Source of the DNA: Desulfobacterales bacterium
GTDB lineage: Bacteria; Desulfobacterota; Desulfobacteria; Desulfobacterales; JAHEIW01
Assembly (NCBI GenBank): GCA_030066985.1
Contig: JASJAN010000004.1
Span: forward strand, 1 to 64,000
Length of the DNA stretch: 64,000 nucleotides
Direction of reading: 5' to 3'
The stretch's first letter is position 1; every line of letters starts with the position of its first letter. Below the pieces are notes generated by a model. The model saw only the letters and a list, made by a program, of their open reading frames with translations. It was not told the origin of the DNA and did no database searches. The position numbers and the translations under genes are program-made. Below are positions 2,355-38,054 of the stretch, one piece after another.

Positions 2355-3143
2355 TCACACGATGTAATAGACACAGGGCTCGGTGCCCAGGGTTTGTTTT
2401 CGACGAATGGTAAAATGGGTTCGAATCAATTCGCGCACCTCCGATGCGGGGTCGTATAAATCACCGAAAGCCAGCGCGCCCTTGGAAACCTCCACACAGG
2501 CCGGTATCTGGCCCACCGCCAGGCGTTCGGCACAGAAATTACATTTTTCGACCACGCCTTTCATGCGGGTCGGAAATTTCTTGTTGGTTTCCTGGATAAA
2601 AGGTCGCGGATCCCGGTAGTTGAAGCTTCTGGCGCCGAACGGGCAGGCCGCCATGCAAAAGCGGCAGCCGATGCAGCGGTGAAAATCCATAAAGACAATG
2701 CCGTCATTGTCGCGTTTCCAGGTCGCCTGGGTCGGACAGGCCCGCACGCAGGGCGGGTTCTCGCAATGGTTACACAGCACCAGAAAGGGGCGATGCTCGA
2801 CCTCTTCGGCTAAAAACCGGGCGGCCTTGCCCGGAAAGGCATTGTGAAAGTGCACATCCCAGATCCATTTGATTTCATGATTTTTGTTCTGCAATTTGGG
2901 GACATTGTGAATCTTGTGGCAAACATCAATCAAAGGCTCCACATCCGCCTCGGATTTTAGTTTGCGGGTATCGATGACCATGGCCCACTGTCTGGCTTTC
3001 AGAACATTGTCCCCTTCTTTAATAATGACTTCAGCCCCGGCTGCCTGCTCTTCTTTGGCGAAGGCATTCAAAACCGGCTTGGTGGTGGCCGCCAGAGCAG
3101 AAATTCCCAGTAATTGTAAAACGCGTCTTCTGCCGCTATCCAT
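2355..3143 (-). CDS. dsrO: DsrO, periplasmic ferredoxin-like iron-sulfur subunit
   Basis: 262 aa. The N-terminus MDSGRRRVLQLLGISALAA is a twin-arginine signal, so the protein should be exported folded. Cysteine clusters of the four-[4Fe-4S] type follow: CNHCENPPCVRACP, then CIGCRFCMAACPFGA, then a CNFC pair followed by a distant C, typical of FdhB/NrfC-like subunits. It passes electrons between the NrfD-type DsrP and the cytochrome DsrJ on the periplasmic face. Its ATG shares one base with the dsrJ stop (TAATG), showing translational coupling. Confidence 0.94.
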   Translation of the reverse strand: MDSGRRRVLQLLGISALAATTKPVLNAFAKEEQAAGAEVIIKEGDNVLKARQWAMVIDTRKLKSEADVEPLIDVCHKIHNVPKLQNKNHEIKWIWDVHFHNAFPGKAARFLAEEVEHRPFLVLCNHCENPPCVRACPTQATWKRDNDGIVFMDFHRCIGCRFCMAACPFGARSFNYRDPRPFIQETNKKFPTRMKGVVEKCNFCAERLAVGQIPACVEVSKGALAFGDLYDPASEVRELIRTHFTIRRKQTLGTEPCVYYIV

Positions 3144-3532
3144 TAGCTCTTCTCCTTCGGGTTATCAATGTGGCAAGTCCAGCAATAGGGCCTGACTGAA
3201 GCAAAATTGTGACAGCGGTCACAAAATTCAGCTTTATTGGAATGACAGTCCAAACAGGTGTTGCTCAGGCTCATGTTAAATTCTTTGCCTTCGGGATTGA
3301 CATAAATGCGTTTGCTTTCGCGCACCACTGAATCCCGCCAGATATCCAGCAACTGCATGTGCTCGGCACGCATGTATTCGGTCGAGCGCACGCATTTTTT
3401 GGCTGCCTTGGCCATGGGTGTCAATTCTACCTCCGGCATCGGGGCGGCTTTACCCCGCATGTACCAGAAGGGAAATAAAACGATGAGCAAAAATACGACC
3501 ACTCCCGTTCCTATGAGTACTTTACTATTCAT
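3143..3532 (-). CDS. dsrJ: DsrJ, membrane-anchored triheme cytochrome c
   Basis: 129 aa from the ATG at 3532. This start is preferred over an upstream one because GGAGG lies 9 nt before it and it overlaps the dsrK stop by 8 nt. One N-terminal transmembrane segment (residues 4-24) is not followed by an obvious cleavage site and is an anchor. Three c-type heme motifs are visible: CLDCH (93-97), CDRCH (104-108) and CWTCH (117-121). Cys47, in the KKCVRS context, sits where the family has the conserved cysteine that ligates one heme in characterised DsrJ. It acts on the periplasmic side of the complex. Confidence 0.95.
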   Translation of the reverse strand: MNSKVLIGTGVVVFLLIVLFPFWYMRGKAAPMPEVELTPMAKAAKKCVRSTEYMRAEHMQLLDIWRDSVVRESKRIYVNPEGKEFNMSLSNTCLDCHSNKAEFCDRCHNFASVRPYCWTCHIDNPKEKS

Positions 3533-5198
3533 CAGCTTGTTCCTCCGACTCAACGTCTGATTCTTCCTCAGGTTCTTCAACGACTTCGCGGCCCGGAATG
3601 TCTTCGCCGCGCAGGTCGGTGGCGCGTTCGTTTTCGCCGGGCATAATCAGGGCATTGGCCACCATTTCATGCAATCCGGTGACATCGACTTCCGGCACCC
3701 AGTATTCCATCAGGGGGGGCAGTGCGGCCCGATCGATGGCGCAAATGCAGGCCAGCATGTTCACCCCATGTCTTTCGTGAACGTGTTTAACCGCGTTGGC
3801 GCGCGGCAACCCGCCGGTTAAGCGCAGTTCCATGTTCTCACCGGCATTCAAACCCGCACCACTGCCGCAGCAGAAGGTATTTTCGCGGATGGTGTTGGCC
3901 GGCATGTCGTAAAAATTGTTGCACACGTTATTAATGACATAACGCGGTTCGTCAAATATGCCCATACCCCGCGAGGGATTGCAGGAATCATGAAAGGTGA
4001 CCTTTAGGTGATCGTTGCGGCTGGGATCCAATTCGAGCTTGTCATGTTTGATCAGATCGGCGGTAAACTCGGCAATATGGACCATTTTATTTGATCGGGC
4101 ATTCTCGAATACGGTGCCGGTAATGGGTGATACCGGTTGCTCCAGAAAATCGGTCGGCCCGTTCATGGTGTCCATGTACTGGTTGATCACCCGCCACATG
4201 TGGCCGCATTCTCCACCCAGGATCCATTTGACCCCCAGGCGCTTTGCTTCGGCATACATCTTGGAGTTGAGCCGTTTCATGGTCTCATGCGAGGTAAAAA
4301 AACCGAAATTGCCGCCCTCGGAGCCATAGGTGCTCCAGGTAACATCCAGCCCGTATTTTTCCTTTAGATAATGAAACAGCATCAAATACCCCATGGCGGT
4401 GTAGGTGCCCGGATCGGCAAACACATCCCCTGAAGGGGTAATAAAAAGAATATCGGCGCCTTTTTTGTTGATATTGTAGTCCAACTGCACGCCGGTGATT
4501 TCTTCGATGTCTTCCACAAAAAAGTCGAGCATGTCTTTAAAGGCATGCGGCTGGATGCCCAGATGGTTGCCGGTGCGGTAACAGTTGGCCACCGGCGTGG
4601 CAATCCAGTCGATGTTGAGCCCCAGCAAGTTGAGCAGCTCGCGGCCCATGATGGTAATTTCGGCCGTATCGATGCCATAGGGGCAAAACAACGAACAGCG
4701 CCGGCACTCGGAACACTGAAACAGGTAGTACCACCATTCCTTGAGCACATCGAGGCTCATCGGCCGCGCCCCGTTGATTTTGCCCAGAATTTTGCCCATA
4801 CGGGTAAAATCGTTGCGGTAAACGGATCGCAGCAGCTCAGCCCTTAAAACCGGCATGTTCTTGGGGTCACCGGTTCCGATATAATAGTGGCATTTGTCGG
4901 AGCAGGCCCCGCAACGCACGCAGATATCCATAAAAACCTTAAACGAGCGAAATTTTTCCAGGCGCTCCTTAAAGCCTTCATGGATGATTTCCTGCCAATT
5001 TTCGGGCAGCTGCCAGTCATCATCCAGCGGGTTCCACTGTCTGGCATTGGGCAGACCGATATATTCGACACTCTTGGGATTGGAGGCATAACAATACATG
5101 CCCTTGCGGATATTAGCCGGAACCTCCATCCAGTCCGTATTGGGCGGACGATGATCGATTTGGATGAGCTCTTCCGGTTTGGGTGTTTCGTCTGACAT
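3525..5198 (-). CDS. dsrK: DsrK, HdrD-like catalytic iron-sulfur subunit
   Basis: 557 aa, cytoplasmic. Two ferredoxin-type cysteine clusters (CVRCGACSDKC from residue 93; CSECRRCSLFC from residue 162) are followed by a CCG-type domain with HDSCNPSRG and NTFCCGSGAG, as in heterodisulfide reductase subunit D. These bind the noncanonical cluster thought to act on the DsrC trisulfide or disulfide. The acidic tail (EEPEEESDVESEEQADE) is a low-complexity extension. The gene lies 3 nt downstream of dsrM and overlaps dsrJ by 8 nt. Family membership is clear from motifs and context. Confidence 0.96.
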   Translation of the reverse strand: MSDETPKPEELIQIDHRPPNTDWMEVPANIRKGMYCYASNPKSVEYIGLPNARQWNPLDDDWQLPENWQEIIHEGFKERLEKFRSFKVFMDICVRCGACSDKCHYYIGTGDPKNMPVLRAELLRSVYRNDFTRMGKILGKINGARPMSLDVLKEWWYYLFQCSECRRCSLFCPYGIDTAEITIMGRELLNLLGLNIDWIATPVANCYRTGNHLGIQPHAFKDMLDFFVEDIEEITGVQLDYNINKKGADILFITPSGDVFADPGTYTAMGYLMLFHYLKEKYGLDVTWSTYGSEGGNFGFFTSHETMKRLNSKMYAEAKRLGVKWILGGECGHMWRVINQYMDTMNGPTDFLEQPVSPITGTVFENARSNKMVHIAEFTADLIKHDKLELDPSRNDHLKVTFHDSCNPSRGMGIFDEPRYVINNVCNNFYDMPANTIRENTFCCGSGAGLNAGENMELRLTGGLPRANAVKHVHERHGVNMLACICAIDRAALPPLMEYWVPEVDVTGLHEMVANALIMPGENERATDLRGEDIPGREVVEEPEEESDVESEEQADE

Positions 5199-5201
5199 AG
5201 T

Positions 5202-6287
5202 TTACTCCTTTTCCTCTGCTGGCTCCGGTTCTGCGGCCGGCTCTTCCGCCGCTGCGGGTTCCGGCATTTTGTCAACCGGCAATCCGGCTTCAACCATTTT
5301 GTCCCTGAATTCGTCCTCGTATTCATCATAAGTATGCACCGACACTGGGTAATTCCAGGGGTTCACGTGCCGACGGGCCCTGGTGTCGGTGGGCAAATTG
5401 CGCGTGGGGCTTAAAAACACACCGCCCAGATGCATTAATTTGCTGAACGGGAAATAGGCAATCAAAATACTGACCAAAAAGACGTGCACATAAAAGATGG
5501 CGCTAATCCCATCCGGAATCGTGGGTCGGAAGGTGACCAGTCCCAGGGTCAGCTCTTTGGCAGCGGCCACATCGGTTTTGGTAAAATAGCGCATCAGAAT
5601 ACCGCTGAGTGCGATTCCGAAAATCAGAAACAGCGGAAAATAATCCGAAGCAATAGAGATGTATTTGACCTGACGCACAAAAAGCCGTCTTAAAAACAGA
5701 TAGCTGACGGCCCCCAGCAGCACAAAGCTTGATAGATAGACTCCGGGCACACCGAATTTAAGCGCCGGATAAATAATCTCGACCCTGAAAAAACTGTCAA
5801 TATTTTCAACTAGTTGAACAAAATATGGCACCGGCTCGGTGAAAAACCGCAAATGACGAATGAGCACCACCAGAAACGCATAGTGGAAAGCCAACGCGCC
5901 CACCCACAGGAAAATTTCAAGCTGGTATGACAGTCGTCCGCCTTGGGTTAATTTCATGTGGGTGTTTCTGAACAGCGAACGAAAGGTCAAAATTTCTAGC
6001 GCCATCCGCCCGACGACCTGCCAGCCCTTTGCCGGGCTGTCGAACTTGGAATGCTTTACCCAGGGCAACGATTTTTGCTGACCGCCCGTCGTGGGGATAC
6101 TGAAGGGCACCGGTGAGCGTGACCAGTTGATCACGCGATAGGCAAATCCCAGCACAAAGGTAAGAATCGCCAGATAGGGGACAACAACCCCGAACACATA
6201 TTGCAATCCTGACACCTGGGCGCCCAAATACGAAATCAGAAAAAGAATGATAACGGCAATCAGCGGAACGATGTACCTTAAATTCAT
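5202..6287 (-). CDS. dsrM: DsrM, NarI-like diheme cytochrome b subunit
   Basis: 361 aa from ATG 6287 (GAGG 9 nt upstream). A GTG five codons higher is possible but overlaps the ribosome-binding site. The protein has two N-terminal hydrophobic segments, then a NarI-like gamma-subunit domain of about five helices with histidines for b-type hemes, and an acidic, alanine- and proline-rich cytoplasmic tail. It exchanges electrons with the menaquinone pool and passes them to DsrK. The 70-nt gap to the upstream regulator gene holds a small hairpin (CTGCCG 6317-6322 / CGGCAG 6330-6335), which could modulate the relative expression of the two parts of the operon. Confidence 0.94.
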   Translation of the reverse strand: MNLRYIVPLIAVIILFLISYLGAQVSGLQYVFGVVVPYLAILTFVLGFAYRVINWSRSPVPFSIPTTGGQQKSLPWVKHSKFDSPAKGWQVVGRMALEILTFRSLFRNTHMKLTQGGRLSYQLEIFLWVGALAFHYAFLVVLIRHLRFFTEPVPYFVQLVENIDSFFRVEIIYPALKFGVPGVYLSSFVLLGAVSYLFLRRLFVRQVKYISIASDYFPLFLIFGIALSGILMRYFTKTDVAAAKELTLGLVTFRPTIPDGISAIFYVHVFLVSILIAYFPFSKLMHLGGVFLSPTRNLPTDTRARRHVNPWNYPVSVHTYDEYEDEFRDKMVEAGLPVDKMPEPAAAEEPAAEPEPAEEKE

Positions 6288-6357
6288 TGAACAGCACCTC
6301 ACTGTTTGGCTTCAGGCTGCCGGCACCGTCGGCAGTCCCGTTGCCGGGTTGTGTATA

Positions 6358-6906
6358 TTATGGTTTAACGCCTTTTTGCTTTCGGGGCGCTTGTGAAGGG
6401 TCTACGATTAAGCCGGCCCGCTTAAAGGCTCGAAAGGTCTGGTTGCGCGTCTCGTTAGCGGCAATCTCGTAAACCTTTTCTCTGCATTCCATGTAAACGT
6501 CAAATGCCACCAGGCCAAGTTGATCAATTCTGGATTCAAAGGCTGCCAGTTCTTTTAGACGGGCGGTATCCTGGAGTTCATCGGCCAGACATTCCCTGAG
6601 AATCTCTTTTAAACCAAAGACAAAGGCAGTGGCCTGGGCGGCCGTAAAATCCTGCACGGCGCGGATGCGGATAATGGGATCCAGATGGGATTTGATTACA
6701 TCCGAATCAAAATCGTTGAGCAATTGATCGAGTATAATGGGGAGGCCGTTAGAGGTGGCGCTACCGACCGGGTTGGCAAATGCGTCTTTCTGATCCTTGT
6801 AGAACCGCACAGTATCGGGTGCATATGTTTGAAGGGTGGCTTCAAACCAACGATGGATGATGTCCTTTTTCTTCTTTTCGATAAGTCCTTTCAGACTGTT
6901 TCCCAT
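6358..6906 (-). CDS. RsbRD N-terminal domain-like protein heading the dsr operon
   Basis: 182 aa from ATG 6906. This start is chosen because AGGAG lies 6 nt upstream and because the mature text MGNSLKGLIEKKKKDIIHRW matches the usual start of RsbRD_N proteins (a helical globin-like sensor domain). A longer frame to 7053 would run through the promoter. The helical domain keeps the DAFANPVG motif seen in homologues that sit directly upstream of dsrM in sulfate reducers. There is no STAS domain after it, so it is a stand-alone sensor domain. A role in sensing redox or energy state for dsr expression is inference from position only. Confidence 0.75.
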   Translation of the reverse strand: MGNSLKGLIEKKKKDIIHRWFEATLQTYAPDTVRFYKDQKDAFANPVGSATSNGLPIILDQLLNDFDSDVIKSHLDPIIRIRAVQDFTAAQATAFVFGLKEILRECLADELQDTARLKELAAFESRIDQLGLVAFDVYMECREKVYEIAANETRNQTFRAFKRAGLIVDPSQAPRKQKGVKP

Positions 6907-6975
6907 AAAAACTCCTGCAGACCCGATCAACATAGGCATTCGGACATAAATTTTTAGGATCAGGTCAAAGGGGTC

Positions 6976-7004
6976 CTTATAGACGACTTGCGAATTTCTG
7001 TCAA
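6976..7004 (-). promoter_or_regulatory. Near-consensus sigma70 promoter of the rsbRD-like/dsr operon
   Basis: On the minus strand TTGACA (7004-6999), a 17-nt spacer, then TATAAG (6981-6976). A start near 6969 leaves a leader of about 60 nt before ATG 6906. This is the best sigma70-type site in the window. Confidence 0.75.
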
Positions 7005-7360: not shown

Positions 7361-9637
7361 GTGCATTTATTGACCGACCAGCATACGCTTTTGATCGTGG
7401 AGGATGATCCCGGTTTTAGCAGCTATCTAAAACGCTTGCTGCGACACAAGGATCTGCACATTTTAACGGCCAACAGCGGCCGACAGGCGATCGAGTGTAT
7501 AGCGGACCACAAGGTTGATCTGGTCCTGCAGGATATCGGACTGCCCGATATTGACGGCTATCAGGTCATGGACCAGACCCTCAAAAACATGCCCGAGGCA
7601 CTGGTGATCGTCATGACCGGTGAAGTCACAGTTGAATCAGCCATTCAGGCCCTTCGTCACGGCGCCTATGATTACCTGCGAAAGCCTTTTGAAGCTACCG
7701 AGCTGGTCAATACGATTGACAATGCCCTGGATCGCATAAAACTGGTGCGCCAGCACAAAGAAGCCCAGCAAAAGCTGCGTGAAAGCGAAGAACGCTATCG
7801 GCAATTGTTTGATAGCGAATCGGATGCGGTGGTCGTATTCGATGCCGAAACCCAGCAATTTGAAGATGCCAACCTGGCGGCACTGAAGTTGTTCGGTTAT
7901 TCGAAAAACGAATTTTTAAAGCTCTGCGTTTTGGATTTATCGGCTGAAAAAGACAAAACAAAAAAATTTCTGCGTCAATTAAACCAAGCAAAACCATCAA
8001 AAAATTTCATCCCGCTGCGCTACTTGATAAACAAAGACGGCAGGGCTTTTCCAACCGAAATCAGTGCGGGTATGTTTATGGCTGACGGGCGCAAAAAAAT
8101 CATTGGTGCCATCCGCGATATCACCGAGCGGCACCGCAAAGATGAAGAGCTGCGTCAGACCAAACAGCGTCTGCAACACATCCTGACATCCAACCCGGCG
8201 GTCATTTATTCCTGCAATCCAACCGGTGACTGCGCCACCACATTCATCAGCAATAATGTCCAGGCTGAGTTGGGCTATGACGCACAGGATTTCATCAATA
8301 ATCGTCACTTTTGGATCGATCACATTCATCCCGATGATGTTCAATTCGTCAAAGCCGAATTTGCCAAACTGGTCGACCAGGGCAGTCATGTTCTTGAATA
8401 CCGCTTCCAGCACAAAGACGGCACTTACCGCTGGATGCGTGACGACCTGCGCCTTTTATTCGGGGAGCAGAGCAATGCTGTGGAAGTGGTGGGTTCCTGG
8501 ACCGATATTACCGACATGAAGCAAACCGAGGAAGCCCTGCGCAAAAGTGAGCAGCAGTTTCGGGATTTAATCGAAAATTCGCCGGTGTGCATTGCCATCT
8601 CCCAGGATGATCGGGTGGTCTATGAAAATCCGGAATTGAAAAAAATATACAGCCTGTCATCAGCAGACAACCTGCTTAAAGTTGTCGATTATGTCAATCC
8701 GGATGACATTGAGAAGGTCAAACACGCATATGCGCGCATGGTCTCAAATGAAACCGATATGGTGGACATCGACTTTCGTTTTCACCCCCCTACCAGCAAT
8801 GGCGACAAAGGCGAATTGCGCTGGTTTCAGTGCCGGGTAACCCGCTTTTTGTATCAGGGGCGCAAAGCGTTATTGTTAAATGCGGTCGATATTACCGAAG
8901 CCAAACAACTCGAGCGTCAGCTGCTGATCAAAAATAAAATGCTCTCCCTGGGGCGCGTAGCTGCCGGCATTGCCCATGAAATTCGCAACCCCCTGACCGG
9001 TATTAACACCTATCTGTATACTATCGAGGATCTTTGCGACTCAGATCAGCTGGGTGCCGAAGATATAGAGATCATCCGGCAGGTCATCAGCCAGGTCCAG
9101 GTGGCCTCTAATAAAATCGAATCGGTTATCAAGCGCGTCATGGATTTTTCCAAGCCCGGTGCCCCCAGAATGGTCCGCACCGATATTAACGCATCACTGG
9201 AAGAAGCCATTGAGCTGTCGCTGGTCGCCATGCGTAAAAACGACATTAAAATTGAAAAATCCCTGGCTTCCGGTTTACCGAAATGCTACGCCGATCCGCA
9301 CCTGATCGAGCAAGTGGTTCTTAATCTAATTACCAACGCCGCCCGAGCCATGGAAAAAACAAACGGTGGACCTAGATTGGTCGAAATCAAATCAACTGCC
9401 CACGATAATACCATCAGCATCCAGGTGGCTGACTCCGGACCCGGGGTGCCCGCCGAAATGCGCGAAAAAATATTTGATCCCTTTTTTACCACCAAAGAAG
9501 ACGGTTCCGGTATCGGGCTGAACATCGCCCAGCGAATCGTTGCAGATCACAACGGCGCCATCACTCTGGGCAGCAGCCGGTGGGGCGGGGCCGAATTCAC
9601 CATAGAACTTCCGATTGAACGAAGGATAAATAACTGA
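7361..9637 (+). CDS. Receiver-PAS-histidine kinase (hybrid sensor)
   Basis: 758 aa, soluble, with no membrane segment. An N-terminal receiver domain (about 8-125, acceptor D58 in LQDIGLP) is followed by three PAS/PAC units (about 145-255, 265-395, 400-510). Then come a HisKA domain with H539 in [12 protein letters not shown] and a HATPase_c domain with the N, G1 and G2 boxes ([24 protein letters not shown]). The GTG start has AAAGGA 7 nt upstream. The stop overlaps the ATG of the NtrC-type gene (TGATG), so the two are co-translated and are very probably cognate. It resembles AtoS/NtrB-class kinases with an added input receiver, suggesting that it is itself controlled by another kinase. The signal is unknown. 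Confidence 0.9.
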
Positions 9638-11031
9638 TGAACCCTTATTGCATATATATTGTCGATGATGAAGCCCTGGCCCGCAACGGCCTCAAACTGG
9701 CTTTGAAGAAAAAGAACTATAACGTCCAGGGATTTGGCTCGGCCGAATCGGCGATTAAAGCCATTGATAAGGACCCGCCGGATCTGGTACTGCTGGATAT
9801 CGGGCTGCCGGGTATGAGCGGTGTCGAAGCCCTAGAAATTATCAAAAAGCGGCACCCAGAAGTGATCATCGTCATGATCACCGCCTACGAAGACGTCCAG
9901 ACGGTGGTGTCTTCCATGAAAAACGGTGCCTATGAATATGTGGTCAAGCCGGTTCAGATGGATGCCCTGCTGGTGATCTTGCGCAACGCTTTTGAAACCA
10001 TCGCCATGCGCAAAGAAATTCAGGCCATGCATGAAAAATATCTCAAAGAGAACCTGCCCTGCTTTATTGGCGAAAGCAATGCCATTCAGGATGTCATGGA
10101 GCTGGTGACCAAGGTTGCCCAGAGCCCGGACACACCCATTTTAATCCTGGGGGAAACCGGCACGGGCAAAGAGCTGATCGCCAAAGCGATTCACTACAAA
10201 AGCCCCAACTTTAAGGGGCCCATGGTGGCCGTCAACTGTGCCGCCATGCCCAAAGAATTGATTGAAAGCGAGCTCTTCGGCTATGAAAAGGGCGCTTTTA
10301 CCGGGGCTGAGCGTTCGGGCAAAGCCGGTCTGGTGGAAAAAGCGGCCCACGGTACCCTGTTCCTGGATGAAGTCGGGGACCTGAGTGCTGAAGCCCAGGT
10401 CAAGCTGCTGCGGTTTTTGGACACCGGCGAGTATTATCGGGTCGGCGGCACCAAAAAGCATGCCGTAAAAACCCGCATCATATCCGCCACCAATCGCGAT
10501 CTGACCGCACTGGTGGCAACAGGCGAATTCAGAAAGGATCTCTACCACCGTTTTGCGGTGGTCAAACTTGAGGTTCCCTCCTTGTGCCAGCGACGTGATG
10601 ATATCATACTGATGGCCAAACATTTCCTGGTGGAATTCAGCCAGAAGTTCGACAAATCATTTAAAGGTATCTCCGCCGAGGCCGAGGCCGCTTTAAAAAA
10701 CTATGACTGGCCCGGCAACGTGCGTGAGCTGAAGAATCTGATCGAGCGCGGTGTGTTGCTGTCCGAGGGGCCGGAGCTGCTACTCGATGATCTGGGCTTA
10801 AAAAACAAAAATGGTCAGCCAAACAACAACCCACTGGTTGACAACCCTCAACTGCCTTCTGTTTCCCCTGAAGGAATTGATTTTAGTGCCATTATCGCCG
10901 ACATCGAAAAAGCCTATTTTGAAGAAGCCCTCAAACTGGCCGACGGCAATGAGAGCAAGGCCGCCCTGCTGCTCAATCTGACCCGCGATAAATTCCGCTA
11001 CCGCCGCCAGAAGCTCGATGCCATGAGTTGA
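9637..11031 (+). CDS. NtrC-family sigma54-dependent response regulator
   Basis: 464 aa. Receiver domain with acceptor D54 ([10 protein letters not shown]), AAA+ central domain with Walker A GETGTGKE (about residue 171) and the sigma54-contact loop GAFTGA (about residue 219), and a C-terminal Fis-type helix-turn-helix ([20 protein letters not shown]). It should bind upstream palindromes and activate sigma54 RNA polymerase after phosphorylation by the adjoining kinase. Sigma54 promoters lie upstream of the operon (7253) and of both giant genes (12905, 21175), making these the nearest candidate targets; that link is inference. In the [13 protein letters not shown] replaces the more common RTLYRKLKE-like end. 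Confidence 0.93.
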
Positions 11032-11220: not shown

Positions 11221-11269
11221 TTGACATTTTGTATCGATCGTAGTTTTGTAAAACATATATTTTATCGAT
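11221..11269 (+). promoter_or_regulatory. Candidate promoter/operator of the toxin-antitoxin pair
   Basis: TTGACA at 11221-11226 is followed 18 nt later by a weak -10 (TTTGTA). Two TATCGAT copies (11232-11238, 11263-11269) flank an AT-rich near-palindrome (AAAACATATATTTT). Antitoxin autoregulation at such sites is usual for AbrB-type systems. Support is modest. Confidence 0.35.
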
Positions 11270-11283
11270 GGAGAATTTATAAA

Positions 11284-11490
11284 ATGGAAGCCGTAACCAT
11301 TTCCCCAAAATTCCAGATTGTCATTCCGCGTAAGGTCAGGGATTCCTTAAATTTGAAGCCGGGTTTAAAAGTTCAGGTCCTGGCTTACGGGAATCGGATC
11401 GAGCTCATTCCGTTAAAAGAGATTTCTGAAATGCGCGGATTTCTCGAGGGAATCAACACAGAAGTCGAACGGGAGCCGGACCGTATATGA
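11284..11490 (+). CDS. AbrB/MazE-fold antitoxin
   Basis: 68 aa from ATG 11284 (GGAGA about 9 nt upstream); an upstream in-frame extension to 11221 covers the promoter. The N-terminal half (VTISPKFQIVIPRKVRDSLN, then a GxKVQVL strand) is a SpoVT-AbrB swapped-hairpin DNA-binding domain. The short tail (REPDRI) would contact the toxin. The stop overlaps the toxin start by 4 nt (ATGA). It is an antitoxin and probable autorepressor of a type II pair. Whether it should be called VapB or by another family name cannot be settled here. Confidence 0.88.
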   Translation: MEAVTISPKFQIVIPRKVRDSLNLKPGLKVQVLAYGNRIELIPLKEISEMRGFLEGINTEVEREPDRI

Positions 11491-11858
11491 ACATCGTCGA
11501 TTCTTCAGCCTGGCTTGAATATCTTGCAGACGGTCCCAATGCGGAGCATTTTTCTGATCCACTGATAGACGTCGATAAATTAATCGTACCGACGATATGT
11601 ATATACGAAGTCTATAAGGTTGTTTTACGACAACGTGGCGAAGATGCTGCTTTGCAGGCGGTTGCCCTCATGAATCAGGGAATCACCGTTAATCTAACCG
11701 ACGACCTTGCGCTTCAGGCTACCAAGATAAGCCTTGAATATAAAATTCCAATGGCAGATAGCATTATTCTGGCCACTGCACGCGCCCATAAAGCTATCCT
11801 TTGGACACAGGATCGTGATTTTAAAGATATGGAAAACGTTAAATACTTCCTAAAATGA
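11487..11858 (+). CDS. PIN-domain ribonuclease toxin (VapC type)
   Basis: 123 aa. The PIN acidic residues are present: DSSAWLEY near the N-terminus, the E in CIYEVYK, and MADSIILATA plus WTQDRDF near the C-terminus. VapC-type toxins cleave tRNA or rRNA and are held inactive by the antitoxin encoded just upstream with a 4-nt overlap. The length is typical. The pair lies between the NtrC operon and the duplicated giant-gene locus and may simply stabilise this accessory region. Confidence 0.9.
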   Translation: MNIVDSSAWLEYLADGPNAEHFSDPLIDVDKLIVPTICIYEVYKVVLRQRGEDAALQAVALMNQGITVNLTDDLALQATKISLEYKIPMADSIILATARAHKAILWTQDRDFKDMENVKYFLK

Positions 11859-13074: not shown

Positions 13075-16000
13075 ATGATCATTCTAAAAACAGCAAAATA
13101 CAGAGCATGCAGTAAAAATCGGCGCTCTGATGCCGGAGGGATTCGGGCGCTTCAGTGCGTGCTTTTGCTGATGGTTGTTTGCGTCGGGATAGCCATGGTT
13201 CAGCCGGGCTGGGCCGCGGACACAGGATGGAAATATGCTGAAAGCGCTTCAAGTGACACTGGTTGGTCCAATTTTACCATAAAATATTTAGCCTCTTCTG
13301 ATGACGCCTATGCAAGTAATACTTCCGGCAGGCCTTATGGATACTTATCGAGCTTTTCTTTTGGAGTTCCAGCCGGGGCAACAATCGATGGTATTGCGGT
13401 CGAGGTGGAAGGAGCCAGTCAGGGAACCACACCGTATTCTATACAGCTTTCCTGGAACTATGGCAATCCAACACCTAGCTGGACGACCGCCAAATCAGAC
13501 AGCTTTACGAGCACAATCGATGCCACCGACACCCTGGGCGGCTCCGCCGATACCTGGGGGCGGACCTGGAACGATTCTGAATTTTCGAATACCAATTTTG
13601 GAATTCGATTATACCGCACAAATACCACCGCTGACTGGCGCATCGATCGCGTTCGAGTAATAATCTACTACACCCTCGTTCCCACATTTGACCAGGACAG
13701 CTTTCGGGCCCGCAATGATGATGGTAGCGAAAGTGCCGCCACCTGGCAGGCACCGGCCAATACCAACTGGACCCAGGCAGTCGATCATAATTTTAGGGTG
13801 CGCTTTGTGGTCCAGGAAACCAGTGGCTTTAGCGCGGCCGACAAAACTTTTCAGCTGGAATATAACCACAACGGCAGTGGTTGGAACGATGCAACCGGCG
13901 CTTCGTCGGTGGTGCGTTCCTGGATTTCTCCCAGTGTAGCCGATGGTGCCGATACCACACAACAAGTTGGTTCGGGCACTTTTGTGACCCCCAACGGCGG
14001 CTTTGATGAAGTTAATGGCCTTGCCGGCGGGGCTTCGCTGGATTTCAGCGGTAGCGATGAGACCGAAGTCGAATATTGCATCCAGATAAGAAGTGCGGAT
14101 GTGTCCAATAATGACACCGTCCAGTTGCGTGTCAAAGGGCTTGACACCTACACCAGCACTCCCACCATCACCGTCAAAGAGACCGGCGTAGGGGGCGGTC
14201 GGGATGTGGCCATCTACCGGGACGCCACCGACACCACCAACTACAACAGCACCAGCGCAACGGATGTAACCTGGGACACTACAGTGCGAGAAGACACCCT
14301 CACCTATTCGCGCACCGGCGACACCGTAACACTTAAGCAGTCAGGTCACTATTTGGTCAACTGGAATTTGTCAGGAAATGAGAGTGGGGCCAACCGAGCC
14401 AAGCTGGAGGGTTTCCTAAATCTGGATGGCACGCCATCGGCGTATGGTCGTGGCTGGGGATATTTGCGCGATACAAGCACTACTACCGAAAGCTATGCCC
14501 AGGGCGCAACGATCATTGAGACAACTGCAGGCAGCGTCAACCTCAAGCTCCAGGTGTTCCGCCAGGATACCAACACAGCCTCTCAGGGCTGGGTGCGCCG
14601 AACCAACCTTTCAGGCATTTCGCTGCTTAAACTTGATGATAGCTGGTCCTATGCGCGTTACCGCAAAACCAGCGGCACACAATATGTAGACGTCATGGAA
14701 GCCACCGCCGTAACGCTGGCCTTAACGGTTACCGACGAGCAGGATACCGGCTTCAGCCGAACGGGCGGCACCATCACCTTGATCAACTCCGGACATTATT
14801 TGATCACCTATAACATCGGCATCGATTCCACCGGGGCTGCAGTGCGTCAGAATTATGTGGGGGCGGTATTTCTGGAGGGAACTGAGGTGCCCGGTACCCG
14901 CACCACGGGCTACATCCGCGAATCCGATGGAGATCTGGAAGGTGGTTTGTCGTTTACCGGCATAATCGTCGCTGATGCCAACGATGACCTGGAAATCAAG
15001 ATCTGGGGTGATGCCAATGACGGCGACCCCACCGCCACGGTTGACCTGGGCACCACAGCGGTGGCCCTTGTCAAATTGCCTGATGATGCTGATTACATCC
15101 GGCTGAGCGGCACGGATGGCACACAGAATTTATCGACCAGTGAGTCCAATATCTCTTTTAACACCGAGGAAGAAGCGGACCCTTCGTTTGAATACAGCAG
15201 CGGCTCACCCGATGAAATCAAGGTTCTAACCGGCGGTGACTACCTGTTTACCTGGTCGGTATTTGCCCGCAAGCCCACCGCTGACGGCACCCGGGAGCAC
15301 ATCTGGACCAAATTGGCCAAAAAAGGGACACCGGATACCATTTATCAATGGGCGCTGGCCGGAAACTACATTCGCGGCAGCCAGGGCACGCCGGCTATCA
15401 ACTGCCCATCGGGCGGCGCATCGGTAGGCGCCATTATTACGGTTGCGGCCGACGATGTTATTTTGCTCAAGCAGCAAAATGAGGCCAGCGATGCCAACGC
15501 TGTAATCGTCTCAGATCGCTACGCTATTCAGGGGGTCAATATCGACAGCCTTTTTGACACCACCTGCCGCTTTACCAAGTACCGCAGCATCACGATTCAA
15601 TCCTCACAGGTGCTGGCGGATCTGACCGATTTTCCGGTGATGGTGACCCTGACCGGCGCCGAATTCCAGGCTGTCGAAGATGATGTCACCGATGCCCAGG
15701 GCGATGACATCATTTTCCGGGATGACCCCAACTACGGCGATCAGCTGTCCCATGAGATCGAAGTCTATGACACCACCAACGACAAACTGGTGGCCTGGGT
15801 CAAGGTACCCAGTGTATCGGGCAGCAGCAACACCACTTTCTATATGGTTTACGGCAACGCCTGCATCACCACATCGTCAGAGGATGCCGCCGGTGTTTGG
15901 ACCGGCTATGAAGCTGTTTATCACATGGACGGCAGTGCCAATACCACCGATTCCACCGGCAACGGTCATACCGGCACTGATAATGATACCGATAGCATCG

Positions 16001-19000
16001 CCGGGCAAATCGCTGATGCCCGGGACTTCACAGCAGCTGATCCGGATCAAATCGATATTGCCAATTCAAATCAGATTAACACGATGACCGTTACCGTCCG
16101 CAGCTTCAGTCTGTGGTTTAAGGCCGAAAGCATGCCCGGTCTAAATTCAAAATATGTCCTTTATGAAGAAGGCGGTGGCACCCATGGATTTAACATATAT
16201 TTGGACGATAGCAACGGAACCACCACCATTAAGTGCGGCCAGTGGGTGAGTTCCGTTGGTGGTTGGCTGTCGACGAGCTTCAGTGATACCAATAATTTGC
16301 ACCACCTAGCCTTCTTATTTGACAGTGCTGGCACGCAAAAGATGATTCTTGACGGCGTCGAAGTCACCGGCTCTTACTCTGGTTCGGTACCCAGCCACTC
16401 CGGTGATATCACCATCGGGCGCTCGGGTGGCAATTCTGATTATCATGATGCCAACAATGATAGCAGCACTTATGCATTTGACGGTGTTATCGATGAATTT
16501 AGAATTGCCAACAGTTTTATCAGTGCCGACTGGATCAAAACCGAGCATAACAACCAGAACGCCCCCGGCAGCTTTTACCAGCTGGGCACCGAAACACTCA
16601 TGGCCACCGCCGTTTCGCTGATATCTTTTACCGCTAAAGGCAAAGACCAGGCAATCAATGTCGAATGGCAGACCGCGCGCGAGTTTGACAATGTGGGGTT
16701 TCACCTGTACCGGGCCACCTCCCCGGCCGGACCCTATGAGCGGCTGACCGACAAGCTCATCTCAGCTACGGTAGTGCCTGGCAAAGGCGGCAGCTACAAT
16801 TATGTGGACAGGCGGGTGAAGGTGGGCAGCCTGTATTATTACAAACTTGAAGACATCGACATCTACGGCAAGCACACCCGGCATGGGCCCATCTGTGTGG
16901 ACTGGGATGCGGATGGGATGCCCGATGACTGGGAGATCACCCACGGGCTGAACCCCTGGGTCAATGATGCCGATTTTGATTATGACGGCGATGGACTTTC
17001 CAACCTGGAAGAATACGAGCGCGGCCTGGACCCGTTTAACGCCGACACCGATGGCGACGGCATCCCCGACGGTGAGGAAGACGGAAGGCTTCCTGCGCGG
17101 GACGATCCCGGTTCGCGGACCATCAGTCGCGGTGTTGAGGTGCTGGCTAAAGATGACAGCGGCATGACCCTTGTGCTGACCACCGGCGGGTTTGAAGCCG
17201 AGGTGATTAACGTCGGTAACGCAGAATATGAGCAGCTAAAAATTGCCGACTATGTGCACGGCTATACCGGCCAGGTGGGCGCACCCCAGCTGCCGCTTAA
17301 AGGGCTGCTGATCGATGTGCCGCCAGGCAAGGTTGTTGAGCTTACCGAGGTGGACAGCCAGGCAGAGCTTCACAGCGGATACCGAATCTATCCGGCGCCA
17401 GAAGCCGTTTTGGATACCGCCGGCGGCATGGCCGCGGTGGGCAGCAGCTTTTACCAGGATGATCTGGCCTACGGCAGCGATGGGTTTTACCCCCAGGCAG
17501 TGGCTGCTTTGGGTGACAGCTATCTTTTTGGCGATCAGCTCAAACAGCAGGTGATCTTTTATCCGACCAGCTTTAACCCGGCCTCCGGTCAGCTGCACCT
17601 GTACCGGCGCATTGAGCTGCGCATCGACTTTGTTGACAGCCTCTACGCCCAGTCAAAGCTCCAAGGCCAATCTCCCTGGCAGCCGCCGTCAAACAATCCC
17701 GGGGTGCTCTCACCGATTGCGCTGGGTCTGGCCGCAGCCCCGGCGCTGGTCAATCCCGCCAGCCCGCTGCTCTCAGCGCTGGGCGCAGCCATTACCGCAT
17801 GGTGGAGCCCGCCGGATGAGGCTGCTGGGGATGTGTATAAGATTATCACCGATACAGAAGGCATTCACCGCCTTACCAAAGACTGGCTTGAAGCAGGCGG
17901 GCTCGACACCAGCACAATGAGCCTAAGTCATCTGCGGCTGTATCACCTGGGTGCCGAAGTGGCCATCGAGGTCTTTGATCAAAACAGCGACGACCAGATG
18001 GACGCAGATGATTATATCCGCTTTTATGCAGCCCCGCTCAGCGCAGCATATAGCAAATACAGCAACCAAAATGTCTACTGGCTCACCTTATCAGGAGGTA
18101 CCGGCTCACCACTGCGCATGGACAGCATCCCAGCAGCGCCGGCCGGTGGAGATCTGGCCGCAGATTTTGCCGACAGCGCCCGGCATGAGCAAAACCAGAC
18201 CATCTGGCTTAAGGCGCCGGGTGAAGATGACATCGAGCGCTGGTTTTTTAACACCTATGTGCAGGGCACAGCGCATGGCGGCGGCGGGCTGCCGGTGGCC
18301 TTTACCATCAATGTGCCCGATCCGACAAGCCTGGGCACCTTAGCGATCTTAATGGCCGGCCAGACCGAAACCTCTCATGAAGTTCGGGTGGCCATCAACG
18401 GGGTGCAGCAAGATTTTAGCTGGACCGGCATCAGCTACTACCAGGCCACGCTGCACAATGTGCCGTTGGTGGATGGCGACAATACCGTCACTTTGCAATG
18501 CTTGAGTGCCGACGGCAATGACTCCATCATTGTTGACTGGTTTAAGGTCGACTATTGGCGTGAGTATGTGACCGCAACCAATACGTTGAAGTTTACGCCC
18601 GACAGCGGCAGCCGCTATGCGATCGACGGCTTTAGCAGCGATACATTGCTGGCCTATGACATCAGCAATCCGGCAGCGGTGGCCATCCTCGATAACGCCG
18701 TGATTACCGGCACCGATCCGTACGCCATTGATTTTGAACCCGGCGTTTATGGCGACACCTATCTGGTGCTCAGCACCGATACGCTCAACATCCCGGTGGG
18801 GCTGATACAGGATACAGCGGCATCCCTGGCCGATGCGGCCAACGGCGCCGACTATATCCTGATCACCCACCGCAATGTGGGCTGGGACGGCAGTGGCGAT
18901 CAACTCAGCTGGCTCACCGACCTGGTGGCTCATCGTGAGGCCCAGGGACTGCGTGTGTTTGTGGCTGACATTGAAGACATCTATGATGAGTTTAGCTTCG

Positions 19001-20424
19001 GTATTCAAAGCCCCCAGGCGCTTAAAGACTTTTTAGCCTATGCTTATGCCAACTGGACAGCCCCAGCACCTCAATACGTCATGTTGGTGGGCGATGCCAC
19101 CTATGATCCCAAAGGCAACTGGAACATGGGCGATGCCACCGCCTATCTGCCCACCTATATGATCTACACCGACTTTAAGGGTGAAACAGTCACCGACCAG
19201 TGGTTTGTAACCTTCAGCGGTGAGGATGCCATCGCTGATATGTATATTGGCCGCCTGCCGGCAGCTGATGCTACCCAGGCGGCGGTGATGGTGGCCAAAA
19301 TCATCGCCTATGAGAGCGCACTCAACACCCAGACCTGGCAAAACAATATGCTGCTGATTGCTGATAACCAGCGCCCGGGCAGCGCCTATGCTTACGAAGC
19401 CGCCTTTGAGGCCATCAACGAAGATGCCGCCGCCCTGATACCCGAAGCCATGGCCGATCCGTTCAGAGGCTATCTCAATGATTATGCCGCTACGGCCTTT
19501 TTAACCGATGACATCATCGATACCCTGAATGACGGGGCGCTGATCGCCAACTATGCCGGCCATGGCGCCACCCAGGTGCTGGCAGAAGAGCATATCTTTG
19601 ATGCCGGTGATGTCTCGGCCTTAACCAACGCCGACCGGCTGCCCTTTTTTGTCTCCATGGCCTGTGAGGCGGGCTTTTTTGCCTATCCGGAAAACTGGGC
19701 CTTCCCCTCGTTGGCCGAAGCGCTGTTGCGTTCTCAAAACGGTGCGGTGGCAGCCCTGATGCCCACCGGCATGACTACCTCTGACGGCCAGCAGATCTTG
19801 GATGCCGCCCTGTTTGAAGCCATTTTTGTAAAAGACATCCGTCAGCTGGGGCCCGCCATTGCCGATGCCAAACAAACCCTTTTGGCCAATGGTGAAAGCG
19901 ACTATGCCCAACTCAGCGATACCTTTTTGCTGTTTGGTGATCCGGCCACCAAGCTGAAGATCCCCTTGCCGCATGTACCTGGCGGAGTAAACGCGGACAA
20001 ACAAGGCAACAAGGTACACCTCAGCTGGGATGCAGTCAAAGACTGCAACGACAGACCTGTGGCCGGCTACAACATCTATCGCGCTGCTTCGGCTGCAGGA
20101 CCCTTTAGCAGAATCAACACGGAGCTGTCCACAGACAACCTCTATGTGGATAGCAGCGCAGTGGGCATGGCCGGCGGCGGCAGTGACAGCAGTTTTTATG
20201 CGGTCAGTGCGGTGGATGACACCGGTTTTGAAAGCGCCCACTCAACGGCAGTTAAACCTGCTTCGTATGCTGCATCTTCTGCATCAGCGATGTCTGGATG
20301 CTTTATATCAGCCACTCAACCGGCAGCGCCGTTACCCTGGATACTCTGGGTGCTGCTGATGGTCGCAGTGGCTACATATGTTTTGAAAAAACTGTCTGAG
20401 CGCTTTGCTATGAGAGCACTGTGA
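13075..20424 (+). CDS. Giant secreted gingipain-like (C25) multidomain surface protein 1
   Basis: 2449 aa. The Sec signal peptide ends near QPGWAA (about residue 48). A weak AGG precedes ATG 13075. Order of parts: beta-sandwich regions (50-390); three jelly-roll repeats marked by GHYLVNW, GHYLITY and GDYLFTW (about 395-825); a DUF2341-like domain (about 832-930) with a LamG-like domain (940-1172); an FN3-like domain (1180-1270); Ca-binding DxDxDG thrombospondin-3-type repeats (about 1280-1335); a gingipain propeptide-like region; and a C25 protease domain (about 1929-2296) with catalytic H2163 (NYAGHG) and C2197 (SMACEAG). A second FN3 domain, then GCFISA, a membrane helix and a basic end follow; this resembles the CFI-box C-terminal sorting signal. 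It is probably a surface-anchored cysteine protease or adhesin. The substrate is unknown. It is paralogous to the protein at 21570-28388. Confidence 0.85.
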   Translation: MIILKTAKYRACSKNRRSDAGGIRALQCVLLLMVVCVGIAMVQPGWAADTGWKYAESASSDTGWSNFTIKYLASSDDAYASNTSGRPYGYLSSFSFGVPAGATIDGIAVEVEGASQGTTPYSIQLSWNYGNPTPSWTTAKSDSFTSTIDATDTLGGSADTWGRTWNDSEFSNTNFGIRLYRTNTTADWRIDRVRVIIYYTLVPTFDQDSFRARNDDGSESAATWQAPANTNWTQAVDHNFRVRFVVQETSGFSAADKTFQLEYNHNGSGWNDATGASSVVRSWISPSVADGADTTQQVGSGTFVTPNGGFDEVNGLAGGASLDFSGSDETEVEYCIQIRSADVSNNDTVQLRVKGLDTYTSTPTITVKETGVGGGRDVAIYRDATDTTNYNSTSATDVTWDTTVREDTLTYSRTGDTVTLKQSGHYLVNWNLSGNESGANRAKLEGFLNLDGTPSAYGRGWGYLRDTSTTTESYAQGATIIETTAGSVNLKLQVFRQDTNTASQGWVRRTNLSGISLLKLDDSWSYARYRKTSGTQYVDVMEATAVTLALTVTDEQDTGFSRTGGTITLINSGHYLITYNIGIDSTGAAVRQNYVGAVFLEGTEVPGTRTTGYIRESDGDLEGGLSFTGIIVADANDDLEIKIWGDANDGDPTATVDLGTTAVALVKLPDDADYIRLSGTDGTQNLSTSESNISFNTEEEADPSFEYSSGSPDEIKVLTGGDYLFTWSVFARKPTADGTREHIWTKLAKKGTPDTIYQWALAGNYIRGSQGTPAINCPSGGASVGAIITVAADDVILLKQQNEASDANAVIVSDRYAIQGVNIDSLFDTTCRFTKYRSITIQSSQVLADLTDFPVMVTLTGAEFQAVEDDVTDAQGDDIIFRDDPNYGDQLSHEIEVYDTTNDKLVAWVKVPSVSGSSNTTFYMVYGNACITTSSEDAAGVWTGYEAVYHMDGSANTTDSTGNGHTGTDNDTDSIAGQIADARDFTAADPDQIDIANSNQINTMTVTVRSFSLWFKAESMPGLNSKYVLYEEGGGTHGFNIYLDDSNGTTTIKCGQWVSSVGGWLSTSFSDTNNLHHLAFLFDSAGTQKMILDGVEVTGSYSGSVPSHSGDITIGRSGGNSDYHDANNDSSTYAFDGVIDEFRIANSFISADWIKTEHNNQNAPGSFYQLGTETLMATAVSLISFTAKGKDQAINVEWQTAREFDNVGFHLYRATSPAGPYERLTDKLISATVVPGKGGSYNYVDRRVKVGSLYYYKLEDIDIYGKHTRHGPICVDWDADGMPDDWEITHGLNPWVNDADFDYDGDGLSNLEEYERGLDPFNADTDGDGIPDGEEDGRLPARDDPGSRTISRGVEVLAKDDSGMTLVLTTGGFEAEVINVGNAEYEQLKIADYVHGYTGQVGAPQLPLKGLLIDVPPGKVVELTEVDSQAELHSGYRIYPAPEAVLDTAGGMAAVGSSFYQDDLAYGSDGFYPQAVAALGDSYLFGDQLKQQVIFYPTSFNPASGQLHLYRRIELRIDFVDSLYAQSKLQGQSPWQPPSNNPGVLSPIALGLAAAPALVNPASPLLSALGAAITAWWSPPDEAAGDVYKIITDTEGIHRLTKDWLEAGGLDTSTMSLSHLRLYHLGAEVAIEVFDQNSDDQMDADDYIRFYAAPLSAAYSKYSNQNVYWLTLSGGTGSPLRMDSIPAAPAGGDLAADFADSARHEQNQTIWLKAPGEDDIERWFFNTYVQGTAHGGGGLPVAFTINVPDPTSLGTLAILMAGQTETSHEVRVAINGVQQDFSWTGISYYQATLHNVPLVDGDNTVTLQCLSADGNDSIIVDWFKVDYWREYVTATNTLKFTPDSGSRYAIDGFSSDTLLAYDISNPAAVAILDNAVITGTDPYAIDFEPGVYGDTYLVLSTDTLNIPVGLIQDTAASLADAANGADYILITHRNVGWDGSGDQLSWLTDLVAHREAQGLRVFVADIEDIYDEFSFGIQSPQALKDFLAYAYANWTAPAPQYVMLVGDATYDPKGNWNMGDATAYLPTYMIYTDFKGETVTDQWFVTFSGEDAIADMYIGRLPAADATQAAVMVAKIIAYESALNTQTWQNNMLLIADNQRPGSAYAYEAAFEAINEDAAALIPEAMADPFRGYLNDYAATAFLTDDIIDTLNDGALIANYAGHGATQVLAEEHIFDAGDVSALTNADRLPFFVSMACEAGFFAYPENWAFPSLAEALLRSQNGAVAALMPTGMTTSDGQQILDAALFEAIFVKDIRQLGPAIADAKQTLLANGESDYAQLSDTFLLFGDPATKLKIPLPHVPGGVNADKQGNKVHLSWDAVKDCNDRPVAGYNIYRAASAAGPFSRINTELSTDNLYVDSSAVGMAGGGSDSSFYAVSAVDDTGFESAHSTAVKPASYAASSASAMSGCFISATQPAAPLPWILWVLLMVAVATYVLKKLSERFAMRAL

Positions 20425-29333: not shown

Positions 29334-29672
29334 ATGGAGATTCAAAACAAAGTGGAGAACGGCGTGTTAATCGTTAGCATTGACGGCCGCCTTGACGCTG
29401 CAAATGCACCAGTTGCCGAAGATGAAATCAAAAAAGCGTTGGGAGAAGAACAAAACCGGTTGCTTTTTGACTTAAGCGAACTGGAGTACCTCAGCAGTGG
29501 TGGGTTGCGTGTTATCCTGGGGGCCGCCAAGGAAATCCGGCGCAGAGAAGGCAAAGTAGCACTTGCCGCCCTCAAAGAATACGTTTATGAAATTTTTGAG
29601 ATCAGTGGGTTTAACGCCATGATTCCTATCAAAGATACCCTTGATGAAGGCATGACGGAAGTATCATCATAG
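29334..29672 (+). CDS. STAS-domain anti-sigma factor antagonist (RsbV/SpoIIAA-like)
   Basis: 112 aa, one STAS domain. The conserved phosphorylatable serine is in YLSSGGLRVILGA. RBS AAAGGAG lies 8 nt before the ATG. In partner-switching systems the dephosphorylated antagonist captures an anti-sigma kinase. It is paralogous to the minus-strand STAS protein at 38120-38455 (same YLSS-GLRV core), and the PP2C gene at 36906 could dephosphorylate both. No anti-sigma HATPase kinase is present in the window. Confidence 0.9.
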   Translation: MEIQNKVENGVLIVSIDGRLDAANAPVAEDEIKKALGEEQNRLLFDLSELEYLSSGGLRVILGAAKEIRRREGKVALAALKEYVYEIFEISGFNAMIPIKDTLDEGMTEVSS

Positions 29673-36905: not shown

Positions 36906-38054
36906 CTATTCTACGATGGCCAATAACAACGCCTGATCATCATCCGCCGGACGGCCGTTGGCAAAATCGTTTACATCCTTCATAATTGCGGCAAGCAGTT
37001 CCTGGGGCTCAAGGTTTTCACCGGCTTCAAGCAGCCGCAGCAGCCGATCTTCCCCGTAGGTTTGCCCGTCCGTATTAAACCGTTCGGTAATCCCGTCGGT
37101 ATACATCAGGATGCGATCACCTGGCTGCAGCTCAGCTTCAGTCACCGGCACTTGTTGGTAGGGATCTACTCCCATCGGGAATACCCCGCTGCAGGTATAC
37201 TCGATCGCCTTTTTCTCAGCCGCCTGGTAGATCATCGGCGGCGGGTGCCCGGCCCGTGCAATCTTTAGGGTGCGGCTGCCGGCGTCGTAAACCACGTATA
37301 AAGCCGTGACAAAACTGGGGTCAGCAACCTTACACAAATGTTCATTCAGAAAATACAGCAGTTCACCGGGTTCGGCGGGCGGTTGCGGGTAGGAACGGAA
37401 AAGCGCGCAGGTCATGGCCATCATGACGGCTGCCGGTGCACTATGCCCCTCGGCATCGGCTACCAGAAAACCCCACTGGTCGTTTTCCATCTTGGCAATA
37501 TCGTAATAGTCACCGCCGGCATACAGACTGGTTTCATAGTGAACGGCAAGCTTTAGACCCTCGATCTCGGGCAGATTCTTGGGCAGGAGCCGTCGTTGAA
37601 CGTCGGAGGCGGCTTGCAGTTCATCTTCGAGGGCGTCTTTCTTTTCTTCGACTTCACGTTTGAGTCGATGAATGGTCATGTGGGTGTCCACCCGCGCGAT
37701 AACTTCGTCGGGCTGAAACGGCTTGGAAACATAATCCACCGCGCCCAGTTGAAGGCCCTGGACCTTGTCTTTGGTATCGGTAAGAGCCGACAGAAAGATA
37801 ACGGGTATATTGGCTGTGGCCGGGTCCGCTTTCAAGCGGCGGCAGACCTCAAAACCATCGATTCCGGGCATCATAATATCCAGCAGGATTAAATCCGGCG
37901 AAGCCTTTTGGGCAATGGACAAAGCGGTTTCACCGTTTTTGGCAACCAGAAGTTTACAACCGGTGGTCTCAAGGGTCTGGTAGAGAACTTGCAGATTGGT
38001 GGGGTTATCGTCTACAAGCAATAAAGATTCATTTTCTCTGTTATTTTCTGGCAT
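36906..38054 (-). CDS. Receiver-PP2C (SpoIIE/RsbU-like) phosphatase
   Basis: 382 aa. Receiver domain with D59 (LILLDIMMPG), coiled-coil linker (EVEEKKDALEDELQAASDVQ), then a PP2C-type serine phosphatase domain with the metal ligands in GGDYYDI, VADAEGHSAPAA, YTDGITERF and DDQALL. Such proteins dephosphorylate STAS antagonists and so release sigma factors. The gene directly downstream of the STAS gene 38120-38455 on the same strand is this one, a typical rsbV-rsbU pair. Receiver phosphorylation by the adjacent hybrid kinase is a reasonable inference. Confidence 0.93.
   Translation of the reverse strand: MPENNRENESLLLVDDNPTNLQVLYQTLETTGCKLLVAKNGETALSIAQKASPDLILLDIMMPGIDGFEVCRRLKADPATANIPVIFLSALTDTKDKVQGLQLGAVDYVSKPFQPDEVIARVDTHMTIHRLKREVEEKKDALEDELQAASDVQRRLLPKNLPEIEGLKLAVHYETSLYAGGDYYDIAKMENDQWGFLVADAEGHSAPAAVMMAMTCALFRSYPQPPAEPGELLYFLNEHLCKVADPSFVTALYVVYDAGSRTLKIARAGHPPPMIYQAAEKKAIEYTCSGVFPMGVDPYQQVPVTEAELQPGDRILMYTDGITERFNTDGQTYGEDRLLRLLEAGENLEPQELLAAIMKDVNDFANGRPADDDQALLLAIVE

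Follow-up and report, generated by a model that had tools for sequence, protein, structure and literature searches.

The gene at 6358-6906 on the minus strand of the window (the whole stretch of 64,000 nucleotides of DNA that was analysed) is almost certainly dsrT, a name that for this copy rests on the domain of the product, the position of the gene and its co-distribution with dsrM. Taking the results as a whole, we lean towards the explanation that dsrT is the operon leader behind a conserved promoter and that its product acts locally on DsrMKJOP. The mechanism we infer is more tentative, namely that DsrT could be a local sensor or an allosteric or assembly partner of DsrMKJOP. dsrT is an already named gene with a literature and is not new; what is added here is the promoter footprint and an RsbR-like globin model of DsrT, and no description of either was found in the open-access literature, subscription papers lying mostly outside that search.

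dsrT leads the dsrMKJOP operon

The reading frame of dsrT starts at ATG 6906 and ends at 6358 on the minus strand, encoding a protein of 182 aa with an RsbRD_N domain at residues 6-107 and, in the predicted model, a long C-terminal helix at residues 114-163. A longer frame from ATG 7053 begins ahead of the promoter and reaches beyond the conserved protein, so ATG 6906 was preferred. Direct reading gave a likely ribosome-binding site, GGAG (6912-6915, minus strand), ahead of ATG 6906, and the GGAG-like site was similar in most of eight aligned sequences, the window and seven relatives. The Pfam search assigned the domain to PF14361, RsbRD_N (E 2.6e-18, 67.1 bits against a cut-off of 24.3), with no second family for the 182 aa at E 0.001, and no NCBIfam model matched the protein. 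The product had been described as a stand-alone stressosome-type sensor; the first part of this stands, as an RsbRD_N domain without STAS, while the word sensor applies at the level of the domain only.

Downstream of dsrT, also on the minus strand, are dsrM (5202-6287; NF038037, 539 bits), dsrK (3525-5198; NF045796, 731 bits), dsrJ (3143-3580; NF038038, 173 bits), dsrO (2355-3143; NF045797, 302 bits) and dsrP (1189-2346; NF045798, 485 bits), and all five products exceeded the NCBIfam equivalog cut-offs. The start of dsrM at ATG 6287 was set by reading, and the searches used 5205-6281. The true start of dsrJ probably lies within its open frame, the NF038038 model beginning at residue 17. Between dsrT and dsrM lies a gap (6288-6357, minus strand) which, counted to ATG 6287, is 70 nt long as previously noted, and which holds a G+C-rich hairpin of -26.7 kcal/mol (z -2.2), a stability matched by 5 of 200 shuffles. 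A role as terminator or attenuator was rejected, since the hairpin has no U-tract and was only partly kept in three relatives.

Published surveys place dsrT just upstream of dsrM and co-distributed with DsrMKJOP (PMC10504309, PMC13047784, PMC6338057, PMC5812927), and in PMC10504309 it adjoins dsrM in several lineages. The same paper states that DsrT may regulate dsrMKJOP expression 'based on homology', and in PMC12948486 and PMC13047784 the authors favour a role in dsrMKJOP expression. The function is still termed unknown in two 2024 papers (PMC11451228, PMC11406059), in agreement with the preliminary description, which had called the role not established and had missed the existing gene name. 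No mention of DVU1291 was found in the open-access literature.

DsrT is conserved beside dsrM

Among 58 genomes (the own genome and relatives), a DsrT match was present in 55 and DsrM over the cut-off in 52. All 52 DsrM genomes had DsrT, and dsrT was directly upstream on the same strand in 50 of them; in the two others DsrT is at a contig edge (G054) or the locus is rearranged (G011). In each of the three DsrT genomes without DsrM, no more than about 170 bases separate DsrT from the end of its contig. Likewise, in the named loci, which are the best 80 of 563 relatives, DsrM followed DsrT in 76, and three of the remaining four lie less than 300 bases from a contig end. The fourth (L110 / L032, the counterpart of G011:C883) has dsrT and the conserved promoter, but the genes after dsrT, the one for an EcoRI-type methylase among them, replace dsrM, which in this genome is on a separate contig; this looks like an insertion or rearrangement.

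The wider sample of 198 genomes of the phylum showed both proteins in 92, DsrM only in 3, DsrT only in 5 and neither in 98, so that DsrT was found in 92 of 95 DsrM genomes, and the genes were adjacent in 89 of 92. The Fisher p of 6e-46 for this co-distribution treats the 198 genomes as independent, and they are related. Of the DsrT-only genomes, G207 has its copy at a contig edge and G134 has a fragment, while in G061 and G221 the copy adjoins a partial DsrM below the cut-off; the match in G075 is a longer RsbR-like protein whose STAS part was read by eye. One DsrM-only genome (G168) has a partial DsrM and is 76% complete. The other two, G087 and G124, belong to one family, have dsrMKJOP without a recognisable DsrT and are real exceptions, indicating that DsrT is not indispensable for having the complex. 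In both (G087:C25, L246; G124:C94, L247), a dsrMK-like paralogue pair directly before dsrM occupies the usual place of dsrT. In G124 the two members match the NarI-like and iron-sulfur families, and a DsrC gene lies ahead of them; for G087, reading of the locus gave the same order of the pair. The check proposed in the preliminary description, conservation next to dsrM across genomes, thus turned out in favour of the gene, which was present there in relatives rather than absent, and the proposal was not refuted.

A conserved promoter stands before dsrT

The promoter of dsrT (6976-7004, minus strand) consists of TTGACA (7004-6999), a 17-nt spacer and TATAAG (6981-6976), with an expected transcription start at about 6969 judging from the spacing. 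TTGACA-N17-TATAAG matches 11 of 12 consensus positions, and two sites reach this score in the whole window, this one and one at 262. Markov simulation of one strand of the 454-base intergenic region, at its own base make-up, gave 11/12 by chance in 0.7% and at least 10/12 in 11.7%. A scan demanding T at the end of the -10 element left the dsrT site unlisted and showed promoter-like sites to be no more frequent than expected (14 found, 14.1 expected). Conservation in relatives is stronger evidence for this promoter than the chance estimate, as far as sequence can tell.

TTGACA and the 17-nt spacer were kept in 8/8 aligned sequences (the window and seven relatives). Two of the 80 named loci (L084, L085) were dropped, which left 78 with sufficient clean sequence upstream. 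Within 220 nt before dsrT, TTGACA was present in 76/78 and TTGACA-N17-TA in 74/78, compared with 1/78 for the latter in the reverse complements. The best promoter score was 10 or 11 of 12 before dsrT in 72/78 and in the reverse complements in 10/78, and in the 150 nt before dsrM in 6/74, and the shuffle mean was 8.5; all these counts are over related loci and are not independent events. Alignment of 66 dereplicated sequences on TTGACA-N17-TA showed that the promoter lies within a longer conserved footprint, which extends from about 15 bases upstream of the first base of the -35 element to 40 bases downstream of it. The footprint includes TTTATYC ahead of the -35, AA-TTG within the spacer and CTTAAA close to the expected transcription start, and there is little signal beyond its limits. 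The -10 consensus of the dsrT promoters is TATARR and lacks the T that closes TATAAT. The footprint and the counts across relatives indicate that the conserved promoter of the operon stands before dsrT in this order, and by this conservation the dsrT promoter was shown to be real and sigma-70-like at the sequence level. The earlier claims of a near-consensus promoter and of an RsbRD_N gene leading dsrMKJOP were therefore borne out. Among 41 loci (the own locus and 40 from the phylum, mostly outside the order and with weak or paralogous hits included), 14 scored 10 or 11 of 12, against 1/41 in the reverse complements, and farther outside the order the promoter, on these matches, is not general.

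The promoter pattern and regulators around dsrT

A 27-base pattern derived from the promoter gave 23 matches with 0 mismatches in the 58 genomes, falling within 21 genomes, and was absent from 37, while the reversed control gave 3. Positions compared by eye placed 22 of the 23 at dsrT and one at G003:C143, which rules out the idea of a regulon; as the pattern was taken from dsrT promoters, it is informative only by its absence elsewhere. This pattern is slightly looser than TTGACA-N9-AARTYGWYTATA, which in the own genome, allowing up to 2 mismatches, gave 10 matches compared with 5 for the reversed control. The sole site with 1 mismatch is directly before a tRNA-Leu gene, suggesting an ordinary strong promoter type. 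One genome carries two dsrT promoters and dsrT starts (G003:C109 and G003:C184); the former holds no more of dsrT than 75 bases next to a contig end, so that it would be a second copy or contamination.

Divergent from dsrT, a receiver-PAS-histidine kinase and a sigma-54 response regulator are encoded at 7361-11031 (plus strand). As a conserved neighbour of dsrT this pair was rejected, because no divergent regulator was found within 1500 nt of dsrT in the 80 loci (the best 80 of 563 relatives); one weak kinase match was found near dsrT in these loci (L042, 62 bits). In 14/80 loci (e.g. L058, L067, L068, L075 and L103, of which L103 was checked), the dsrT strand also encodes a sigma-54-type response regulator that has 36-39% identity to that of the window and ends 193-1000 nt ahead of dsrT, so transcriptional control by other means is possible. 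Farther along the plus strand, 11221-11858 encodes overlapping MazE-type antitoxin domain and PIN-domain proteins, likely a toxin-antitoxin pair, and 13075-20424 is an ORF of 2449 aa for an apparently secreted multidomain protein.

Partner-switching genes

The window also encodes a receiver-SpoIIE phosphatase (36906-38054), a STAS protein (38120-38536) and a lone STAS protein (29334-29672), and homology search showed no tie between these genes and dsrT. In the own genome, which is 97.8% complete, there were 10 STAS and 14 HATPase_c_2 matches, DsrT was the one RsbRD_N match, and Rsbr_N, the other RsbR sensor family, had no match. The open frames at the 10 STAS matches were 110-148, 558 and 754 aa, none of RsbR length. 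No RsbR-type protein was found there by homology search, which novel sensor families could escape. As to an RsbR-RsbS-RsbT set, the genome does hold STAS and HATPase_c_2 genes, of which a single cluster was read; RsbS and RsbT were not found beside dsrT, whose neighbours are dsrM and the divergent histidine kinase. Since neither an RsbR-type protein nor a STAS frame of RsbR length was found, a stressosome route in this organism appears unlikely. Regulatory contact between partner switching and sulfite reduction, which the preliminary description had raised, is thus unsupported. A true RsbR, with RsbRD_N and STAS and followed by STAS and HATPase_c_2 genes, was found at L204 802-2523 (G236:C50), and the DsrT profile matched it at E 5e-12. 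This genome has both DsrT and the true RsbR-STAS-HATPase set, so the two are different proteins. The RsbR of L204 is a useful outgroup for DsrT.

Predicted structure and conserved residues of DsrT

The AlphaFold2 model of DsrT (45 sequences) has seven helices, the last of them at 114-163, with a mean pLDDT of 85.8. No PDB entry reached E 0.001 in Foldseek, whose list consisted largely of globins and had the stressosome N-domain 3zta in second place. In VIA-align 2 the top rows were 3pmc (Z 11.6, 126 aligned, 3.0 A), 2bnl, the RsbR N-domain (Z 11.0, 126 aligned, 3.2 A), and 3pmd (Z 10.6, 142 aligned, 4.2 A), all above globins and phycobiliproteins. Against RsbR-type and pXO-type domains in general Z was 9.7-11.6, with no Foldseek E below 0.001, and a helical Z under about 13 may reflect a common helix arrangement, which applies to all the top rows. 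No PDB chain was related by sequence at E 1 or better. The structural order of the model agrees with the independent Pfam match, and the fold of DsrT is predicted to be globin-like, nearest to the RsbR N-domain and stand-alone non-haem globin sensors.

Ten residues were identical in 108/108 rows (W20, Y28, N45, P46, R82, Q85, F95, K100, D128 and F135), some of which vary in more distant copies. The columns conserved at 85% or more in the 108 rows contained no histidine, hence no conserved haem-ligand His. The NP motif (N45 P46) was present in 39/41 phylum-locus rows, and the two exceptions are the longer proteins L203 and L204. C141 was kept in 107/108 rows, and a universal redox-cysteine mechanism was dropped because distant copies have R, A, S, D, N, Y, V or T instead.

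Discussion

In the mechanism proposed here, DsrT would be a small RsbRD_N-only protein, predicted to be globin-like and without a conserved haem-ligand His, which could use its helical pocket to bind a small molecule and could touch the DsrM/DsrK side of the complex. It would not feed into a transcription-changing stressosome, and its action would be on DsrMKJOP itself. Given that DsrT lacks an output domain, that no stressosome was found and that dsrM constantly accompanies the gene, the most parsimonious interpretation is a local role on the complex, as ligand-gated modulation or assembly. Against it, published authors favour control of dsrMKJOP expression (PMC10504309, PMC12948486 and PMC13047784), the same-strand sigma-54-type regulator of 14/80 loci leaves room for transcriptional control, G087 and G124 speak against strict necessity, and the Foldseek result and the Z under about 13 weigh on its globin-like basis.

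DsrT could instead be a dedicated assembly chaperone of DsrMK, doing for these proteins what NarJ does for NarGHI. NarJ, a chaperone, is helical and the DsrT prediction is all-helical; DsrM matches PF02665, the nitrate reductase gamma subunit, and the first position in the operon and the tight co-distribution fit a maturation factor. However, Pfam at E 0.001 gave PF14361 with no NarJ/TorD family match, RsbR-type and globin-like rows head the structural list, and two genomes have dsrMKJOP without dsrT, so we regard this function as unlikely, though deserving of consideration.

We find it rather improbable that DsrT is a stressosome-type regulator altering transcription of dsrMKJOP or a wider regulon through STAS and RsbT/RsbW-like kinases. 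Its RsbRD_N homology, the match of its profile to the RsbR of L204 in a genome that has DsrT too, the STAS and HATPase_c_2 genes of the own genome and the expression control suggested by the above authors all point in this direction, but DsrT lacks STAS, the search of its genome yielded no RsbR-type protein, and the distribution of exact promoter matches reveals no regulon. That dsrT is an inert leader gene, conserved for its promoter and leader RNA and not for its protein, is hardly credible, for despite the strongly conserved footprint the protein keeps its ten identical residues, albeit some varying in distant copies, and dsrT keeps its place where the promoter is not found.

Returning to the local role, we also offer, as speculation with a small chance of being right, that DsrT is a non-haem globin-fold sensor which, freed from the stressosome, now serves a respiratory complex as an integrated gauge. 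It might bind a quinone, fatty-acid or sulfur-anion ligand and allosterically set the electron flow of DsrMKJOP, while the conserved, nearly genome-unique promoter might fix the dose of sensor to complex. Sulfite reduction is a globally important respiration, and DsrT, so widespread among the DsrM genomes of the phylum and yet of a function called unknown as recently as 2024, gives testable handles on a control point of this process. These are one conserved promoter at dsrT in the order, an RsbR-like protein with no stressosome set found, and genomes without dsrT.

Compared with the DsrT of sulfate reducers and green sulfur bacteria (dsrTMKJOP), the window copy has the same position and the same co-distribution with DsrMKJOP, and no difference was found in this comparison by position and co-distribution rather than sequence. 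The named loci, as the best 80 of 563 relatives, included no published copy such as those from C. tepidum and T. yellowstonii. RsbR/RsbRD of the stressosome share the RsbRD_N domain with DsrT, whose predicted fold is near 2bnl and 3zta, whereas DsrT is without STAS and RsbS/RsbT neighbours and has the NP motif. The stand-alone non-haem globin sensors pXO1-118 and pXO2-61 (3pmd, 3pmc), among the top three structural rows, have domains that bind fatty acid and halide. They are likewise a lone globin-like sensor module, but their pathway is unrelated and the likeness comes from the predicted fold, with no PDB sequence match at E 1 or lower.
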